Shown here one piece after another: positions 5,283 through 32,332 of a DNA stretch of 32,342 bases. A model generated the notes under the pieces. That model was not told the origin of the DNA and made no database searches. It saw nothing but the letters and a program-made list of their open reading frames with translations. This stretch comes from Bacteroidota bacterium (lineage in GTDB: Bacteria > Bacteroidota > Bacteroidia > Bacteroidales > WCHB1-69). The stretch lies in contig JAKPTX010000246.1 of assembly GCA_029570835.1 (NCBI GenBank), positions 1 to 32,342 of the forward strand, read 5' to 3'. Position 1 is the first letter of the stretch; each line of letters opens with the position of its first letter. The position numbers were made by a program, and so were the translations under genes.

Positions 5283-6953
5283 ATGAAATCAGACATTGAA
5301 ATAGCAAAAGCAGCCAATATGTTACCCATCAGGGCTATTGCTGCCAATTTGAATATTGACCAGGATTTAGTTGAAAAGTTTGGAAGATATAAGGCTAAAT
5401 TACCTCTCAGCTTAATTGATGAAGAGAAAGTTAAAAAAAGTAAGTTGATCCTGGTGACTGCCATCACCCCAACACCTGCCGGTGAAGGAAAAACAACCAC
5501 ATCCATTGGATTGGCTCAGGGAATGAACAAGTTGGGACACAAAACCATGGTGGTTCTTCGTGAGCCTTCGTTAGGACCTGTTTTTGGAGTAAAAGGAGGA
5601 GCTGCAGGGGGTGGTTACGCACAAGTCATCCCGATGGAAGATATCAACCTGCATTTTACCGGTGACCTGGCAGCTATTGAAAGAGCACATAACTTGTTAG
5701 CTGCACTGATTGATAATAACTTACAGAGTAAAACCAGAAAACTTAACCTGGATCCCAGAACCGTGAAATGGAAAAGAGTAATGGACATGAATGAGCGCGC
5801 ATTGCGTGACATTGTTATTGGTTTGGGTGGAACATCACAAGGAGTACCTCGTGAAACAGGATTTGATATTACAGCTGCATCCGAAATTATGGCTATCCTT
5901 TGCTTATCTGAAAGCATTGAAGATCTTAAAAATAAATTAGGCAATATCTTTATCGGGTATACCTATGATAAGAAACCAATTTTTGCCAGAGACTTGAATG
6001 CACAAGGAGCTATGGCAGCACTACTAAGAGACGCCATTAAACCTAACTTAGTACAAACTTTAGAGAATACACCTGCTTTGATTCACGGTGGACCTTTTGC
6101 GAATATTGCTCAAGGTACAAACTCCATTATTGCTACTAAAATGGGACTTTCCCTGTCAGACTATGTAGTTACTGAAGCAGGGTTTGCTTCTGAATTGGGA
6201 GCAGAGAAGTTCTTTGACATTAAATCACAATATGGCGGATTAACTCCTCATGCAACCGTAATTGTAGCCACTATCAGAGCATTGAAATATCATGGTGGAG
6301 TAGATTTAAAAAGCTTAAGTACATCTAATCCGGAAGCAGTTAGAGAAGGATTACAAAACTTGGATAAACATATTGAGAATATTCTTCACTTCAATATCAA
6401 ACCGGTAGTTGCTTTGAATAAATTTGCTACCGATTCCGAAGAGGAGATCGCTGTTTTAACAAATCACCTCAATGATTTAGGAATTCAGTTTGCTGTTAAT
6501 GATGCCTGGGCTAAAGGAGGAGAAGGTGCACTCGACTTAGCAAAAGTAGTGGTTGAAGCAGCTCAAAGTTGTTCAACTTGCTTCAGACCATTATATGAAT
6601 TTGACTGGACTATTGAAAAGAAAATCCATAAAATTGCAACTGAGTTATACGGCGCGGTAGATGTAGAGTATTCTCTTAAAGCCAGAAAAGACCTCAAAAC
6701 CATTGCTGATTTGAATCTGGAAAATCTACCCGTATGTATTGCTAAAACTCAAAAATCACTTTCTGACAACCCCAGATTATTGAACAGACCGCATGGTTTC
6801 GTTGTCAATATCCGTGAAATTGAGATTGCATCAGGTGCAGGCTTTGTGATTCCTATCGCGAGTGATATCATGAGAATGCCCGGACTACCCGAGGTGCCAT
6901 CAGCCGAAAATATCGACATCGATAATGATGGGAATATTACAGGACTATTCTAA
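5283..6953 (+). CDS. fhs: Formate-tetrahydrofolate ligase
   Basis: 556 aa, the normal length. It makes 10-formyl-THF from formate, THF and ATP in the cytoplasm. This supplies one-carbon units for purines and initiator tRNA formylation. The P-loop TPTPAGEGKTTT lies at residues 63-72 or so. The signature REPSLGPVFGVKGGAAGGGY (93-112) and the motif IPMEDINLHFTGD (116-128) follow. The C-terminus with MRMPGLPEVPSAENID is also standard. It is a single-gene unit with its own promoter and a hairpin terminator at 7003-7035. Fermentative Bacteroidales commonly keep this enzyme; nothing nearby indicates a Wood-Ljungdahl pathway. The stop codon is followed after one base by a GAAGGTA heptamer array. Confidence 0.97.
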   Translation: MKSDIEIAKAANMLPIRAIAANLNIDQDLVEKFGRYKAKLPLSLIDEEKVKKSKLILVTAITPTPAGEGKTTTSIGLAQGMNKLGHKTMVVLREPSLGPVFGVKGGAAGGGYAQVIPMEDINLHFTGDLAAIERAHNLLAALIDNNLQSKTRKLNLDPRTVKWKRVMDMNERALRDIVIGLGGTSQGVPRETGFDITAASEIMAILCLSESIEDLKNKLGNIFIGYTYDKKPIFARDLNAQGAMAALLRDAIKPNLVQTLENTPALIHGGPFANIAQGTNSIIATKMGLSLSDYVVTEAGFASELGAEKFFDIKSQYGGLTPHATVIVATIRALKYHGGVDLKSLSTSNPEAVREGLQNLDKHIENILHFNIKPVVALNKFATDSEEEIAVLTNHLNDLGIQFAVNDAWAKGGEGALDLAKVVVEAAQSCSTCFRPLYEFDWTIEKKIHKIATELYGAVDVEYSLKARKDLKTIADLNLENLPVCIAKTQKSLSDNPRLLNRPHGFVVNIREIEIASGAGFVIPIASDIMRMPGLPEVPSAENIDIDNDGNITGLF

Positions 6954-6954
6954 A

Positions 6955-6984
6955 GGTAGAAGGTAGAAGGTAGAAGGTAGAAGG
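6955..6984 (+). repeat. GAAGGTA heptamer array
   Basis: Four 7-bp units (GAA at 6959, 6966, 6973, 6980), beginning one base after the fhs stop codon and so within its 3' UTR, ahead of the terminator hairpin. Confidence 0.92.
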
Positions 6985-12975: not shown

Positions 12976-13030
12976 CAACAAAAATAATTACGAATTACAG
13001 TTTAAAATTCTGTTTATTAAAATTTCTAAT

Positions 13031-13155
13031 TTCTTTCTTCTTTTTGAAATAAAAAAAAAGGGGGGCAGGATTTGAGGTGTCTTTTCTATTAATCTATCAC
13101 CCCACTCTGGAATATGATACCTTTATGCAGGTTCAATTACGAATTACGAATTACG
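13031..13155 (+). repeat. Half copy of the composite dispersed element (5' module)
   Basis: The 352-bp region 12903-13254 has no gene. Most of it is this module: a T/C-rich lead with CTTTTTGAAATAAA, GGGGGGCAG (13060-13068), a 31-nt spacer, CCCCACTCTGG (13100-13110), then GAATTAC heptamers (13135-13155). The same order and nearly the same spacing occur at 27049-27178 and, inverted, at 32072-32195. The 67-nt hairpin module is missing here. A two-unit GAATTAC array is also present at 12986-12999. Confidence 0.85.
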
Positions 13156-13183: not shown

Positions 13184-13201
13184 GACAGGTCGCGACCTGT
13201 C
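13184..13201. repeat. 18-bp perfect palindrome
   Basis: GACAGGTCGCGACCTGTC reads the same on both strands. It stands alone, between the composite element and the 3' end of the T9SS repeat protein gene. It could form a hairpin with almost no loop or bind a dimer; I know no specific role. Confidence 0.8.
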
Positions 13202-13254
13202 CCTATGACCAAAATAATGATCATAATTATTACAATGAACTTCTTCTGAATAAT

Positions 13255-26953: not shown

Positions 26954-26984
26954 GAAGGCGGAAGGCGGAGGGCGGAAGGCGGAA
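26954..26984 (+). repeat. GAAGGCG heptamer array
   Basis: Units GAAGGCG, GAAGGCG, GAGGGCG, GAAGGCG, then GAAT. It is identical in unit order to the array at 610-640. It lies just upstream of the nifU promoter. Confidence 0.92.
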
Positions 26985-26997
26985 TCAACATTGTACT

Positions 26998-27025
26998 GTA
27001 GAGACGCAAAGCATTGCGTCTTTAC
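26998..27025. repeat. Dispersed hairpin repeat with GAGACGCAA arms
   Basis: GTAGAGACGCAA and TTGCGTCTTTAC flank a 4-nt loop; the 12-bp stem has one mismatch (a G-U pair in one orientation). GAGACGC hairpins of this look are widespread in bacterial intergenic DNA, including in cyanobacteria and Bacteroidota. Confidence 0.75.
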
Positions 27026-27048
27026 GGCATGTCTTACTTCTTATTTAT

Positions 27049-27320
27049 TATTTCTTCTTCTTTTTGAAATAAAAATAAAAGGGGGCAGATCATATCTAAC
27101 TTTTTAGCTATTTCATTTCCCCACTCGAAAAATTATACCATTTAGGACATGTGTGATCAATTACGAATTACGAATTACGTTTTACAAGGTAGAAGGTAGA
27201 AGATAGAAGATAAAAGGTTCACTCGGGGTGCGACTTCAAGTTATAAACCGAATAGTGAGTTACATGAGTAGTAGTCGCGCCCCGAGTAGCCCAATTTAAA
27301 AACTTTCGACTTTCGACTTT
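27049..27320 (+). repeat. Composite dispersed element, copy 1
   Basis: Most of the 495-bp gene-free region 26906-27400 is this element. Order: T/C-rich lead, GGGGGCAG (27081-27088), 30-nt spacer, CCCCAC (27119-27124), GAATTAC units (27158-27178), GAAGGTA/GAAGATA units (27187-27217), a 67-nt hairpin (27221-27287), then GAAAGTC units read on the minus strand (27304-27320). The same order, inverted, is at 31930-32195. There is no ORF in it. It may be a non-autonomous mobile repeat or a structured RNA. Confidence 0.9.
27221..27287 (+). other. 67-nt conserved hairpin in the composite element (copy 1)
   Basis: ACTCGGGGTGCGACT (27221-27235) pairs with AGTCGCGCCCCGAGT (27273-27287): 15 bp with one T/G position that is a U-G pair in RNA of this strand. 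Copy 2 has the same asymmetry. The loop is 37 nt and differs from copy 2 at a handful of positions, mostly transitions. Confidence 0.85.
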
Positions 27321-27366
27321 ATTTAATCCTAAAATCTTTTAATCCCACAAATCCTAGTTTTTTTTG

Positions 27367-27374
27367 TATTTTTG
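27367..27374 (+). promoter_or_regulatory. -7 box for udk
   Basis: TATTTTTG matches TAnnTTTG. Predicted transcription start is near 27381, about 20 nt before the ATG. Confidence 0.55.
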
Positions 27375-27400
27375 TAGCTTGAATTCAAAACAGCACGGTT

Positions 27401-28018
27401 ATGTATATTATTGGTATTGCCGGTGGATCCGGATCGGGAAAGACATCTGTAGTGAAACAAGTAGTTCAGGCACTCCCTTCTGAACGGGTTAGAGTGATAT
27501 CTCAAGACTCCTACTATTGTGACAATGGACACCTGACCCAAGAGGAGCGGGAGCAGATCAACTTTGACCATCCCTCCTCCATTGAGTTCTCCCTTTTGGT
27601 GGAACATATCAAACAACTCAAAGATAATAAGCCGATTGAGATGCCAACTTATTCCTACATCACCTGTGCCAGAGGCAAAGAAACCATTCACGTTGAGCCC
27701 GGAGAAGTGATTATCGTAGAAGGAATCCTCATCTTTACTTGTCCTGAATTGTGCGAACTATTAGATCTCAAAGTGTTTGTTGACACGGAAGCTGATGATC
27801 GCATCATCCGCATCATTCAGAGAGATGTCAATGAAAGGGGACGCGGTTTGGATAAATCGATCCGCCATTATGAAACCTACGTTAAACCGATGCATGAGAT
27901 GTTTATCGAACCGACCAAACGGTTGGCGGACATCATCATCCCTGTTGGAGGACACAATCTGAAAGGAATCGATATCCTCACTTCCAAAATCAAACAAACC
28001 TTAAATATAACCGATTAG
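27401..28018 (+). CDS. udk: Uridine kinase
   Basis: 205 aa, the normal length. The P-loop GGSGSGKTS (8-16) is followed by VISQDSYYCDNG (about 34-45), NFDHPSSIEF (about 55-64) and MPTYSYITCAR (about 80-90). IVEGILIF (about 108-115) and the lid region RDVNERGRGLDKSIRHYETYVKPMHEMFI are also standard. It phosphorylates uridine and cytidine in pyrimidine salvage. Its last four bases overlap the end of the convergent tatD gene. It lies between the two inverted composite elements. Confidence 0.93.
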   Translation: MYIIGIAGGSGSGKTSVVKQVVQALPSERVRVISQDSYYCDNGHLTQEEREQINFDHPSSIEFSLLVEHIKQLKDNKPIEMPTYSYITCARGKETIHVEPGEVIIVEGILIFTCPELCELLDLKVFVDTEADDRIIRIIQRDVNERGRGLDKSIRHYETYVKPMHEMFIEPTKRLADIIIPVGGHNLKGIDILTSKIKQTLNITD

Positions 28019-28788
28019 GGTAGCTTGTAAAAAACTGCTTTCGCATTCTTTCTCGTAATCCGTGCTACCTCTTCGAGAGTTAGACCGGAAATTTCTGCTA
28101 TTTTTTCTGCGATCAGTGGAATATAGGCACTCTCATTCCTCTTTCCCCGATACGGCATCGGAGCTAAAAAAGGAGCATCCGTTTCCAGCACAATATGTTC
28201 TACTCCAATCTCTTTGACAATCTCCTGTAATCTGCTGTTCTTAAAAGTAACAGGACCGGCAATTCCCAACAGAAAACCATGATCTATAGCCCAGCGCGCT
28301 TCCTGAATCCCCCCTGAAAAGCAGTGTAAAACTCCTGAAAAAGAGTCCCAGCGATATCTTTTTAAAATAGCGATAGCCTCATTATACGCATCTCTGATAT
28401 GAATCGAAAAGGGTAGATTCAAATCACGCCCCCACCCAAGTTGTTGTTGAAATGCAATCTTTTGCTCCTCAATAAAGGTTGTGTCGTGATACAAATCCAG
28501 ACCAATCTCCCCAACGGCAATCATCCGGGGATCCTCCAGGTAGCGCTCCATCACCTCCAGTTGCTCCCGATAATCCTTTTTTACCTCTGTCGGATGCAGT
28601 CCAATCATGGGAAACAGGTTATCCGGATACTTTTCCACTGCATTGAGTAAGTGAGGTATTGTATCCGCTGCCACACAAGGTAACAGAATTGTATCGACAT
28701 GAGCTGCTATAGCGCGTTGCACAACTTGATCAAACTGCTCGGGATAATATTCAGCATATAAGTGACTATGAGTATCTATAAATTTCAT
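28015..28788 (-). CDS. tatD: TatD-family metal-dependent hydrolase
   Basis: 257 aa. The metal ligands are where expected: DTHSHLY (5-11, H7 and H9), GEIGLDLYHD (E about 93), SIHIRDA (H about 129), HCFSGG (H about 155) and ETDAPFL (D about 204). The family is a single-domain TIM-barrel nuclease of the YcfH/YabD/TatD type, acting on DNA or RNA 3' ends. Convergent with udk. A -7 box lies 27 bp upstream of its ATG. Confidence 0.92.
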   Translation of the reverse strand: MKFIDTHSHLYAEYYPEQFDQVVQRAIAAHVDTILLPCVAADTIPHLLNAVEKYPDNLFPMIGLHPTEVKKDYREQLEVMERYLEDPRMIAVGEIGLDLYHDTTFIEEQKIAFQQQLGWGRDLNLPFSIHIRDAYNEAIAILKRYRWDSFSGVLHCFSGGIQEARWAIDHGFLLGIAGPVTFKNSRLQEIVKEIGVEHIVLETDAPFLAPMPYRGKRNESAYIPLIAEKIAEISGLTLEEVARITRKNAKAVFYKLP

Positions 28789-28814
28789 TTTAATATAAAT
28801 AAAATTGGGGGGTG

Positions 28815-28822
28815 CAAAGATA
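28815..28822 (-). promoter_or_regulatory. -7 box for tatD
   Basis: The minus strand reads TATCTTTG. Predicted transcription start is near 28808, about 20 nt before the ATG. Confidence 0.55.
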
Positions 28823-28951
28823 GAGCCTTTTTTTCAATTCTACCCTCTCAATCTATCAATTTTTCCTTTTAGAAAATGACAATAAATGCAGAAAATCTGT
28901 CATTTTATGCTTTTTTTCAAATAATTTGTGTTGAATAGGCAACTTATTTAG

Positions 28952-28959
28952 TATTTTTG
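28952..28959 (+). promoter_or_regulatory. -7 box for the T9SS type B protein
   Basis: TATTTTTG matches TAnnTTTG. Predicted transcription start is near 28966. The first ATG (28974) would be only 8 nt downstream, while the preferred ATG (29034) is 68 nt downstream. A 17-bp direct repeat with a 21-bp period (28979-29016) lies between them. Confidence 0.55.
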
Positions 28960-29033
28960 CATCTTATTATATAATGAAAATTACATTTTTTAATCAAGAA
29001 ATTACATTTTTTAATCGAAAAAACACAAATATC

Positions 29034-31367
29034 ATGGAGTTTATAAAGTCATTTTACAGCAAACTATTCATACTTTTTGGTGCTCTTTTATTCTCCACCC
29101 TCACTCTTTCATCTCAAATCACGGTTCAAAGTCCCAATGGTTGGACACCCCTACAATTGTTGGAAAACATGTTGGTTCAACCCCCTGCAATTTCCGGAGT
29201 TTATATTGATAATGCCAAATTTTGCAACTCAACCGCCGCCCTTCCCAATAGTACTACATCCAGAATTGGAAGATTTCTAAATGGTTCTAGCTTTACCGAT
29301 TTTCCACTCACTAGTGGAATCATTATGACCACAGGAAACATTAGCGTTGCTCCCGGTCCTAACAACAGTACAAGTGCCAGTAGCCAAAACACACAAGGGA
29401 TCCCTGATGCCCAACTGGCTGCTCTAGTAGCGCCTTACAGTTTGGGAAGTAATGGTGCTTCCGTGCTGGAGTTTGAATTTATCTCTATTTCAGGAACGGT
29501 TTCTTTTGAGTATGTTTTTGCTTCTGAAGAGTATCCCGAATATGCTAATACCAGTTTTAATGATGTGTTTGCTTTCTGGGTTACCGGACCCGACCCGGTG
29601 ACAGGAAATAATGTAAGCAGAAACATTGCATTAATTCCGGGAACCAACCTGCCGGTAACCATTAACAATTTAAATCATACGGAATATACTGAATATTACT
29701 ACAGTGTTCCAAGCGGGTCCCCGGGGATTCAATTCGATGCATTCACTTATGTTCCGGCCGACTCCTCTGAAACCGGCGAGCGTTCGGGCTTAGTGGCACG
29801 AGGTTATGTTTTGCCTTGCACTCCATACATCATGAAATTAGCTATCGCTAATGTAAGTGATAATATTTTGGATTCCGGTGTGTTTTTGAAAGAGGGAAGT
29901 TTCCAGGCTCCTAAAATATTCAGAACTCACAACTACACTATAGATAATGGAGACACATTGCTAAAAGCTTGTAATATGGATACACTCACCTTCAGTTTGG
30001 AAAGAAGAGACCCCACCAGAGCCTACTCCTATACTGTCCATACCAATCATTTTCCCAATGTGGGTGTGGATCTAAATGAAGATTACGAAATTTACTATTA
30101 CCATCCTGTTACCGGAGATTATACTCAAATGACAGGTACATCAGCTTCTTTCCGTATTCCTGCAGACTCTTTGAGTACCTACATGGTTATTAAAGTAGCT
30201 GATGACGCTGAATTTGCACCCGGAGAGGTAAAAACATTAACCCTACTCTTGGAATTGGAAACTTGTGATGGTATTGAAGATCCCAGAAAAGACACTCTGG
30301 TGTATTATATAAAAGACAACTTCCCTATCATCCTGAGTGATACCAATATTGTGGGATGTGAATTAGTCAATGAAATCACTATTGAAGAGTTGGGAGGTGG
30401 AGATGTTAAAAATGTAACCTGGATTCCCTCTACTAATATTGATGATCCTACCAGTTTGTCAACCACTTGTAATATCTCCGATACCATCACCTATACCGTT
30501 TTTGCATGGGATGATATCAACTGTAGAAAAGATTCGGCAATTGTCAATGTGTATGTAGTTGCACCACCAACTCCCTCATTTACAGTGAGTGAGAAAACCG
30601 GTTGTGCTCCTCTTTCCTCTCGAATTACCTCTACAACAACACCTTCTGATGCCGAAGTTATATTTGTGATTACCAGTGAAGATGGTACTATTCAAGACAC
30701 CATTAGAGATCAAGAATTTATCTACGATTTTACAATTCCGGGTTACTATTCGATAGATTATTTCACATCTACAGCAGATGCTGAAGCATGCCAAAAATCA
30801 CTGTTAAATCCTAACTATATTTTTGTTTCCGATTTTCCTACGGCTGATTTTACCTGGACGCCTGACGAGCCTACCAATGGCAGACCGATACAATTTACGA
30901 ATACCTCGACCGGAGAAGAAATCACAGATTTTCATTGGAATTTTGGAGATGGAGGAGTTTCTATCAACGAAAACCCCGTTCACGCATACCATGTTCTCTC
31001 TGATGAAAATTTTAATGTTTATTTAAAAGTTACCAATCGCTTTGGCTGTAGTCATGACACGCTAAAACAGATTACTGTTACTGATAAGTATGCTTTTTAT
31101 GTTCCCAACTCATTTACACCCAATAATGATGGCATTAATGATTTGTTCTTACCTCGCGTTACAGATGTTTTAAAGTATCATTTGGTTGTCTACGACCGCT
31201 ACGGTAAAGCGATTTTCCAAACTATAAATACGGAAGAAGCCTGGGATGGAACATTCAATGGAGCACCCTGCCCAAGAGGAGTCTATACCTGGGTAATTAC
31301 ATACATCAGATATTCTGCTCAGGAAACGGAATTAAGAAAAAGCGGTACGGTTACGTTGATCCGTTAA
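29034..31367 (+). CDS. Choice-of-anchor L / PKD-domain surface protein with T9SS type B tail
   Basis: 777 aa from the ATG at 29034. This start gives a normal signal peptide (KLFILFGALLFSTLTLSSQ); the ATG at 28974 would add 20 residues with a repeated ITFFN. Residues about 70-270 match the choice-of-anchor L domain: TSRIGRFLNG, GIIMTTGN, FEYVFASEEYPEY (about 157-169) and FNDVFAFWV (about 173-181). Residues about 280-590 are beta-rich segments. A PKD domain lies at about 605-680 (FTWTPDEPTNGRPIQFTNTS, FHWNFGDGG). The final 85 residues are the type B (gliding-motility-associated, CHU_C) sorting domain: FYVPNSFTPNNDGINDLFLP, YDRYGKAIFQ, AWDGTFNG, GVYTWVI. It is expected on the cell surface, probably as an adhesin. 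No enzyme motif is visible. Confidence 0.92.
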   Translation: MEFIKSFYSKLFILFGALLFSTLTLSSQITVQSPNGWTPLQLLENMLVQPPAISGVYIDNAKFCNSTAALPNSTTSRIGRFLNGSSFTDFPLTSGIIMTTGNISVAPGPNNSTSASSQNTQGIPDAQLAALVAPYSLGSNGASVLEFEFISISGTVSFEYVFASEEYPEYANTSFNDVFAFWVTGPDPVTGNNVSRNIALIPGTNLPVTINNLNHTEYTEYYYSVPSGSPGIQFDAFTYVPADSSETGERSGLVARGYVLPCTPYIMKLAIANVSDNILDSGVFLKEGSFQAPKIFRTHNYTIDNGDTLLKACNMDTLTFSLERRDPTRAYSYTVHTNHFPNVGVDLNEDYEIYYYHPVTGDYTQMTGTSASFRIPADSLSTYMVIKVADDAEFAPGEVKTLTLLLELETCDGIEDPRKDTLVYYIKDNFPIILSDTNIVGCELVNEITIEELGGGDVKNVTWIPSTNIDDPTSLSTTCNISDTITYTVFAWDDINCRKDSAIVNVYVVAPPTPSFTVSEKTGCAPLSSRITSTTTPSDAEVIFVITSEDGTIQDTIRDQEFIYDFTIPGYYSIDYFTSTADAEACQKSLLNPNYIFVSDFPTADFTWTPDEPTNGRPIQFTNTSTGEEITDFHWNFGDGGVSINENPVHAYHVLSDENFNVYLKVTNRFGCSHDTLKQITVTDKYAFYVPNSFTPNNDGINDLFLPRVTDVLKYHLVVYDRYGKAIFQTINTEEAWDGTFNGAPCPRGVYTWVITYIRYSAQETELRKSGTVTLIR

Positions 31368-31379
31368 CCCTAATTTTTA

Positions 31380-31387
31380 TACTTTTG
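31380..31387 (+). promoter_or_regulatory. -7 box for purE
   Basis: TACTTTTG matches TAnnTTTG. Predicted transcription start is near 31394, about 29 nt before the ATG at 31423. Confidence 0.55.
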
Positions 31388-31422
31388 CATTTTCTTAACG
31401 TGAAACAAAAAATTTGAGATCC

Positions 31423-31893
31423 ATGCAAAAAAAAGTTGTCATTATCATGGGGTCCAAATCGGATCTGGAGTGGGCAAAAAAAATCGAAACAGTACTACAC
31501 TCTTTTGATATTCAAGTTGTTATACGTATTGCTTCCGCACACAAAGTGCCACTCAAATGCTACGAGATTATCAAAGAGTATGAAAAAGAGAATCCTATAT
31601 TTATCACCATTGCCGGAATGAGCAATGCGCTAAGTGGTTTCGCAGATGCACAAACTCACTGTCCCGTGATTGCTTCGCCTCCTTACAGCGATAAATTTGG
31701 TGGTGCCGATATCTACTCCTCTCTCCGTATGCCTTCGGGTGTAGCCCCCATGACCGTCATCTCTCCGGAAAATACAGCCCTGGCAGCAGCCAAAATAATC
31801 GGGTTGGTATATCCTGACGTACAACAAAAGATTATCGCGTTCCAGGAAAAGAAACGCGCTGAAATTGAAGCAGCAGACAAGGAGTTAAGATAG
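31423..31893 (+). CDS. purE: Class II PurE (AIR carboxylase type)
   Basis: 156 aa from the ATG at 31423; the in-frame TTG at 31414 is not needed. The substrate-binding motif is MGSKSDLEW (9-17). The next motif is SAHK (about 43-46), where class I PurE (N5-CAIR mutase) has SAHR. The active-site loop reads AGMSNALSGF (about 67-76). Class I has GGAAHLPG there. PPYSDKFGGADIYSSLRMPSG (about 88-108) resembles the matching stretch in class II enzymes from Treponema and the AIR carboxylase part of animal PAICS. Class II enzymes carboxylate AIR directly with CO2 and do not need PurK. No purK is present in this window. The gene is monocistronic and its stop codon lies inside a GAAGATA heptamer array. 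Confidence 0.9.
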   Translation: MQKKVVIIMGSKSDLEWAKKIETVLHSFDIQVVIRIASAHKVPLKCYEIIKEYEKENPIFITIAGMSNALSGFADAQTHCPVIASPPYSDKFGGADIYSSLRMPSGVAPMTVISPENTALAAAKIIGLVYPDVQQKIIAFQEKKRAEIEAADKELR

Positions 31894-31926
31894 AAGATAG
31901 AATGATTTCGGATTTCGGATTTCGGA
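31889..31926 (+). repeat. GAAGATA and GAAATCC heptamer arrays at the purE stop
   Basis: GAAGATA units (GAA at 31893 and 31900) overlap the TAG stop of purE. GAAATCC units on the minus strand follow (TTC at 31907, 31914, 31921). They lead into composite element copy 2. Confidence 0.9.
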
Positions 31927-31929
31927 ACC

Positions 31930-32195
31930 AAAAAAAGGCGAAAGGCGAAAGTTTTCTTAAATCGGGCTACTCGGGGCGCGACTACTACTCGTGTGACTCA
32001 CTGCTCGGTTCATAACTTGAAGTCGCACCCCGAGTGAACCTTCTATCTTCTACCTTCTACCTTGTAATACCGTAATTCGTAATTCGTAATTGATCCTGCA
32101 TATCTAAAATGGGAAATATTCCAGAGTGGGGTGATAAAATAAGCAAAAAGGATTGGCTATTCTGCCCCCCAATTATTTAAAATACCAAATAAGAA
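31930..32195 (-). repeat. Composite dispersed element, copy 2 (inverted)
   Basis: This is the reverse-strand counterpart of 27049-27320. Reading on the minus strand from the right: T/C-rich lead, GGGGGGCAG (32170-32162), 30-nt spacer, CCCCAC (32131-32126), GAATTAC units (about 32092-32072), GAAGGTA/GAAGATA units (about 32066-32040), hairpin (32035-31969). At the far end are GAAAGGC units (GAA on the plus strand at 31940 and 31947), where copy 1 has GAAAGTC. The gene-free region 31894-32332 contains little else; 32196-32332 is AT-rich with no clear feature. Confidence 0.9.
31969..32035 (-). other. 67-nt conserved hairpin in the composite element (copy 2)
   Basis: Same length as copy 1. On the element strand the left arm keeps T and the right arm keeps G at the one non-Watson-Crick position, so RNA of that strand has a U-G pair, while the other strand would have an A-C mismatch. 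Confidence 0.85.
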
Positions 32196-32332
32196 AATAC
32201 CAAATAAGAAACTTCCATGATTTTTTTTAACACCCGCGAGCATGAAAATTGTACCGGTGATTTTATATTTATGCTTTTTTGTTAACTTTTTGCTGTCTAT
32301 TTAGTATAAGTATAAAAGTAAAACAAACAAAT

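Follow-up and report, generated by a model that had tools for sequence, protein, structure and literature searches.

What are the two inverted copies of a short composite element that flank the genes udk-tatD-T9SS-purE (T9SS, type IX secretion system) in an uncultured Bacteroidales bacterium, and what happens to such elements between species? The DNA concerned, referred to here as the window, spans the entire contig C223 (GenBank JAKPTX010000246.1, 32,342 nucleotides). The original prediction, made from the sequence alone, described the copies and proposed that they could either allow the enclosed genes to invert or be a non-autonomous mobile repeat. We find that both 265-base elements are members of a large family of intergenic repeats without genes, present in one group of uncultured Bacteroidales, and that species differ in what the sites contain, a kind of change outside both proposals. 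We think it fairly likely that several short, gene-less intergenic modules are chained together in the composite and remodelled by exchange from copy to copy, rather than forming one transposon with fixed ends.

The architecture of the composite is as predicted. Copy 1 (27049-27320, plus strand) and copy 2 (31930-32195, minus strand) each contain all five modules in the same order, namely a G-run/C-run module (module A), GAATTAC units, GAAGGTA units, a 67-nt hairpin and GAAAG units, and a similarity search aligned copy 1 to positions 31930-32210 with 81% identity over ~280 bases (E 4e-66). The hairpin was confirmed by folding against shuffles (z -5.7 in copy 1 and -4.2 in copy 2). The partial third copy (13031-13155) is also present and has module A and GAATTAC units only. 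The sequence between modules was also said to have diverged while module order was kept. The order is indeed kept, but the divergence lies mainly in module A and at its edges; the GAATTAC, GAAGGTA, hairpin and GAAAG stretch is much more alike between the two copies than module A is. The core of module A consists of two octamers, GGGGGCAG and CCCCACTC, that enclose an interior of ~30 nt.

The element occurs at many other places in the genome, contrary to one outcome that the original prediction had named as its refutation. The exact pattern GGGGGCAG-N26..34-CCCCACTC has 125 matches in the source assembly (2.92 Mb in 277 contigs), divided 67 to 58 between the strands, against none for a reversed control pattern; a few of the 125 have atypical interiors and may not belong to the family (e.g., C55:15290, C92:88353 and C104:6481). 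A similarity search with copy 1 gave at least 98 matching pieces in the source genome (40 of 225 candidates scored). Exact core matches number 154 in Bacteroidales bacterium UBA5429, the sister genome (98% complete), and 0 in the other genome of the same genus, G002 (65% complete). Beyond the genus there is one match in one genome of another genus of the same family and none in 95 of 96 relatives. Module A is a lineage-specific repeat.

A pattern scan of named genomes found at least 62 stretches, 60 of them from UBA5429 among the matches listed. Of the other two listed stretches, one (L174) belongs to an assembly with the label Gastranaerophilales and one (L200) to an assembly with the label Bacillota. 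L200, 98% identical to the source genome along 3.1 kb, is probably a contig assigned to the wrong bin; L174 is only 83% identical to a fetched locus over ~350 bases. Two exact patterns gave no module A match in viral contigs (the phages collection was not searched), and blastn gave no match in plasmids. A phage or plasmid origin was rejected because no copy was present in the viral contigs or plasmids searched.

The source genome was compared with UBA5429 site by site. Sites were paired when flanks matched on both sides, using 117 copies from the source genome and 124 from UBA5429; 60 pairs that matched in one flank alone were not used, and at least two of the 117 copies (window position 1097, minus strand, and L054) look coding rather than repeat. 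Module A is present in both genomes at 27 paired sites, where the flanking DNA is ~80-99% identical. The interiors have an identity of at least 0.83 at 11 of these sites and of 0.77 or less at 16, i.e., 12 at 0.63 or less and four at 0.68-0.77. For random pairs of copies, the mean interior identity is 0.62 and the 95th and 99th percentiles are 0.77 and 0.87.

Individual sites display several patterns of replacement. For example, at L075/L171 both flanks of ~100 nt are kept and the interior between the octamers is replaced (0.60), and at L056/L160 the interior is identical (1.0) and both flanks are changed (0.61 and 0.43). Two UBA5429 copies, L170 and L255, have an identical interior and unrelated left flanks, each of which is orthologous to a different source-genome site bearing another interior; their right flanks are of one module type, yet different. 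Copy 1 of the window is near-identical to its UBA5429 counterpart for ~85 nt up to GGGGGCAG; beyond it, the sequence as far as the udk promoter is replaced, as is a GAAGGCG array farther to the left. In the third genome, L200, the core and flanks at one site are identical to those of the source genome. The next site has other contents and an extra open reading frame (ORF) of 304 aa (L200:5683-6597), with heptamer or near-heptamer sequence at the joints on either side; this ORF had no Pfam match, and the source genome and UBA5429 have only repeat there.

Interspersed bacterial repeats are usually seen as fixed copies or as hopping units. Here, the positions appear to be kept while the contents change, like a constant frame around a variable insert, and module A sites allow one to ask what drives exchange between bacterial repeats. 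In the explanation that we prefer, module A would stay put at shared intergenic positions and the contents to its left, inside it and to its right would be swapped with other copies in the genome. The joints would fall in or close to the two G/C-run octamers and at the GAAN4 heptamer arrays. We infer that the likeliest process would be non-reciprocal copying between dispersed copies, either by ectopic gene conversion or by template switching during repair.

The octamers are conserved. A profile with the octamers masked found 107 distinct cores in source-genome loci, with GGGGGCAG exact in all 107 and CCCCACTC exact in 104. Between the species, the 11 conserved interiors have 23 differences in 332 positions, compared to 0 in the 176 positions of their octamers (Fisher 6e-5), the latter figure being lowered by a copy-finding pattern that allowed at most one mismatch per octamer. 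Interior length, determined on 209 copies (117 + 92) found with a pattern that permitted 27-33 nt, is 30 nt in 146 copies, 31 nt in 42, 29 nt in 19, and 28 and 32 nt in one each. As a separate observation, a CCCCTCC...GGGGTGCCCGAAGGGCGGGGTGGTTATT repeat separates the interior from CCCCACTC, or from a sequence close to CCCCACTC, in loci L071, L148, L177 and L260.

These properties might also be expected of a dedicated exchange of cassettes, in which GGGGGCAG and CCCCACTC are recognition ends and a recombinase or template-directed enzyme swaps the 30-nt interior. Such a system would account for an interior swapped with both flanks kept, for one interior at two sites with unrelated left flanks and for the interior length of 29-31 nt in 207 of the 209 copies; it would also fit the loci fetched by similarity rather than by pattern, where an octamer-blind profile showed both octamers to be exact in 31 of 31 cores. 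We nevertheless consider it unlikely. The two octamers are neither inverted nor direct repeats of each other, one consensus is common to the interiors, which are weakly linked mosaics in their own right, a merged empty site was not seen among the fetched loci, and no enzyme was identified (recombinases were not searched). It is similarly doubtful that GGGGGCAG-N30-CCCCACTC forms a genome-wide network in which an octamer-guided enzyme copies 30-nt interiors between sites; if true, one pool of interchangeable inserts would be common to more than 100 intergenic sites.

Linkage between parts of the copies bears on where exchange by copying would have its joints. The similarity of neighbouring 15-nt blocks (116 + 117 copies) shows correlation inside each flank, with r 0.30-0.35 on the left and 0.42-0.49 on the right. 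Across GGGGGCAG the correlation is -0.03 in the source genome and 0.08 in UBA5429, and across CCCCACTC it is 0.095 and 0.078 in the two genomes. The interior of module A is itself a mosaic.

Several points weigh against remodelling by copy-to-copy exchange. The correlations of 0.08, 0.095 and 0.078 across the octamers are weak, yet they were reached by only 12-28 of 499 shuffles; a sliding control (78 + 80 copies with a 46-nt core) shows weak linkage through the whole core, not only at the octamers; and UBA5429 keeps some linkage across CCCCACTC (z 1.6-2.7, and 4.0 at one neighbouring placement). With weak linkage throughout the core and residual linkage across the octamers, joints exactly at the motifs are not proven. 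The shared homology of 8-30 nt is short for conversion of the RecA type. Four of the 16 replaced interiors (those at 0.68-0.77) could be the result of fast divergence, one of the twelve at 0.63 or less (L007/L173) is probably a paralogous locus, and some paired sites share one intergenic gap and so are not independent. The UBA5429 loci were mostly fetched for holding module A, which biases positional conservation upward, and L013, L089- and L097+ had no partner of the same orientation in the interval in the first pairing (L089- was paired later). Finally, every genome compared is a metagenome assembly.

Module A copies differ in how much of the remaining composite follows them. Counting copies with enough sequence to the right, module A stands alone in 54 of 111 source-genome copies, is followed by GAATTAC in 35 and by GAATTAC-GAAGGTA in 11, and joins a GGGCAGGGACAAGCCC palindrome (class A-GGGCAGGG) in seven; the full chain is rare (4 of 111). 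The corresponding 108 copies of UBA5429 comprise 42 with A alone, 44 A-GAATTAC, seven A-GAATTAC-GAAGGTA, two chains to the hairpin and 13 with the palindrome. A looser alignment adds one full-length relative with 75% identity (C150:106011). Distinct modules, a set order and partial versions are all present, as in composite repeats of the BOX/BIME kind. Long hairpins, allowing up to three mismatches, number 11 in the source genome vs one in UBA5429, and none was found in five other relatives, so the hairpin either spread in the source lineage or was lost in the UBA5429 lineage. At both window sites UBA5429 has module A and no hairpin. Judging from presence and absence in the two genomes, the hairpin-bearing right part was probably added beside pre-existing module A copies.

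The mobile repeat of the original prediction could take the form of a miniature inverted-repeat transposable element (MITE)-like unit, the composite or its hairpin part being transposed by an enzyme acting in trans, e.g., a Y1/HuH transposase. The copies are indeed dispersed and gene-less with a stable hairpin that is more abundant in the source genome, which has two matches to Y1 transposases. Nonetheless, this explanation seems rather unlikely to us: UBA5429, with its 154 cores, has no match to Y1 transposase PF01797, the two source-genome matches have no composite beside them in the stretches read, complete chains are fewer than partial ones, and the module A positions are shared between species at the sites compared. 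Furthermore, no inverted repeat joins the ends of the composite; the inverted-repeat search found the hairpin in both copies and one further match of 10 nt inside the left flank of copy 1. A target duplication was not recognised by eye, the composite ends lying in heptamer arrays or AT-rich repeats. Mobilisation by Y1/RAYT enzymes was judged insufficient, given their absence from UBA5429 and the lack of a composite beside the two matches. No fitting transposase was found, Y1 being the one family searched and other transposases and recombinases not searched. The mobile-repeat proposal is partly supported, by the dispersal, the absence of a gene of its own and the unequal numbers of hairpins; the shared positions, the lack of an inverted repeat joining the ends and the Y1 results speak against it.

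Inversion of the enclosed genes is not supported, since neither the order nor the orientation of udk-tatD-T9SS-purE differs in UBA5429, the only relative with an alignment of the whole segment. The upstream genes and the segment are collinear with the window at 87-93% identity, and module A is present at both sites in the same opposite orientations. An invertible segment would be suggested by two inverted copies, 81% identical and 4.6 kb apart, and by a difference in gene order between the genomes that lies at the 3' copy. However, the collinearity of the enclosed genes and the fact that the pair is not special, as the 125 cores occupy both strands genome-wide, make recombination that flips these genes scarcely credible.

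The difference in gene order lies to the right of purE, where copy 2 is ~130-150 bases from the contig end. In UBA5429, purE is followed by an ORF that we take to be sufC, which in the source genome is on contig C62. The source-genome ORF upstream of it (L306:3-773) is presumably an IS110-like transposase; that is, UBA5429 has purE and a module A site where the source genome has this presumed transposase before the putative sufC. The last 131 bases of the window had no match in UBA5429 or G002 in a search without a positive control.

Could module A instead be a regulatory RNA, a terminator or a promoter element whose spread is secondary? The conserved octamers, the intergenic location and a mild excess of neighbouring gene 3' ends would be in accord with such a role. 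However, neither copy of the G-run/C-run module folds (z -0.2 in each), 160 copies whose core is 46 nt long show no base-pair covariation inside it, and an Rfam scan of the window at gathering scores found three tRNAs only. Gene orientation was compared for 86 + 95 copies from the source genome and UBA5429, with ORFs of at least 70 aa picked by length; the comparison excluded copies located within a predicted ORF (19 and 13) and those lacking a gene on one side. The AT-rich side faces gene starts/ends in 37/49 and 39/56 cases and the C-run side in 39/47 and 35/60, i.e., in similar proportions and with no side preference. A regulatory origin is, in our opinion, very unlikely.

The heptamer arrays are a second regularity that needs an explanation. 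Exact tandem arrays with a period of 7 number 173 in the fetched loci of the source genome and 153 in those of UBA5429, compared to 0-2 arrays for every other period from 5 to 12 (the length cut-off was 20 nt up to period 8 and twice the period plus 6 beyond). GAA is present within the unit in 171 of the 173 and 149 of the 153 arrays. Each genome has fifteen different units, nearly all of them GAAN4, including GAATTAC, GAAATCC, GAAAGTC, GAAGGTA, GAAGGCG and GAATTTA; examples in the window are at 377-407, 2910-2931, 6953-6984 and 26954-26984. GAATTAC arrays also occur in seven of 97 other relatives besides UBA5429. Stretches from some of these, picked for GAATTAC, have mostly GAATTAC with a few single other arrays and no module A. 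In L271 (G035, another genus) the GAATTAC heptamers seem to be inside the coding end of a protein. In L075, L174, L196 and L241, the AT-rich left flank of module A and its G-run go straight into a GATTTCG heptamer array and the core is absent.

As a family of gene-less intergenic repeats built from modules, these elements can be compared with BOX, BIME and STAR. Module A has the GC-rich motif and the variable spacer of near-constant length of a STAR-type repeat, although it fails the STAR sequence definition; the 14-bp motif T(G/A/T)TGTTG(G/T)GGCCC(C/A) has no match in the window with up to two mismatches. As described in the sections cited here, the STAR elements of Staphylococcus are also intergenic with a short conserved GC-rich motif, they differ in copy number between species and the mechanism of their propagation is unknown (PMC3532100). 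They differ in that STAR motifs repeat with 40-44 bp spacers, and in that module A interiors appear to move between sites, whereas the cited part of the STAR study considered exchange of spacers between loci and reported no frequent transfer (PMC3532100). BOX elements of Streptococcus pneumoniae are likewise composites with modules in a fixed order and a variable middle, and spread mainly in a past burst; the cited part of that report gives BOX a predicted RNA fold and a proposed insertion sequence partner, neither of which was found for module A (PMC3049150). In addition, module A contents differ at shared sites.

BIMEs are intergenic clusters containing palindromes. The same is described, in the portion cited, for REPs, which are palindromes tagged with GTAG or CGTC (PMC3733652). 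GTAG-like palindromes also adjoin module A. However, the module A core is a non-palindromic G-run/C-run, and the Y1 search found no cognate RAYT. In the 67-nt hairpin, GTAG overlaps the 3' foot of the stem, compared to the unpaired GTAG/CGTC tag and 20-40 nt palindrome of a REP. Tandem heptamers in intergenic regions are known from the cyanobacterial STRR repeats. Intergenic direct repeats of the heptamer TAACTGA are, in the part of the report cited, patchy across phyla that include Bacteroidetes (PMC4679880). The present genomes differ from both in that their numerous, mostly GAAN4 units are joined to hairpins and module A. No paper on the module A element was found in the literature with general search terms only, so its absence from print is not established.

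Table 1. Parts of the two composite copies and of the partial copy, with positions in the window.
Feature	Position	Strand	Remark
Copy 1, left flank of module A, pyrimidine-rich / AAATAAAAATAAA	27030..27080	+	Near-identical in UBA5429 up to GGGGGCAG
Copy 1, module A core, GGGGGCAG-N30-CCCCACTC	27081..27126	+	Interior unlike that of the UBA5429 site
Copy 1, connector from module A to heptamers	27127..27158	+	
Copy 1, GAATTAC heptamer array	27159..27179	+	
Copy 1, GAAGGTA heptamer array	27186..27218	+	
Copy 1, 67-nt hairpin	27221..27287	+	
Copy 1, GAAAGTC heptamer array	27302..27320	-	GAAAGTC is the minus-strand reading
Copy 2, GAAAGGC heptamer array	31934..31951	+	Right end of the minus-oriented composite
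Copy 2, 67-nt hairpin	31969..32035	-	
Copy 2, GAAGGTA heptamer array	32038..32063	-	
Copy 2, GAATTAC heptamer array	32071..32091	-	
Copy 2, module A core	32124..32169	-	
Copy 2, AT-rich flank of module A	32170..32211	-	With AAAATACCAAATAAG tandem repeat
Partial copy, AT-rich flank and module A core	13026..13107	+	Core at 13061-13107
Partial copy, GAATTAC heptamer array	13135..13155	+	

Palindromes adjoin module A at two places in the window, 26998-27027 and 13184-13202 (GTAGAGACGCAAAGCATTGCGTCTTTAC; GACAGGTCGCGACCTGTCC), and several palindrome families of the GTAGAGACGCAAAGCATTGCGTCTTTAC / GACAGGTCGCGACCTGTCC type recur in the fetched loci.

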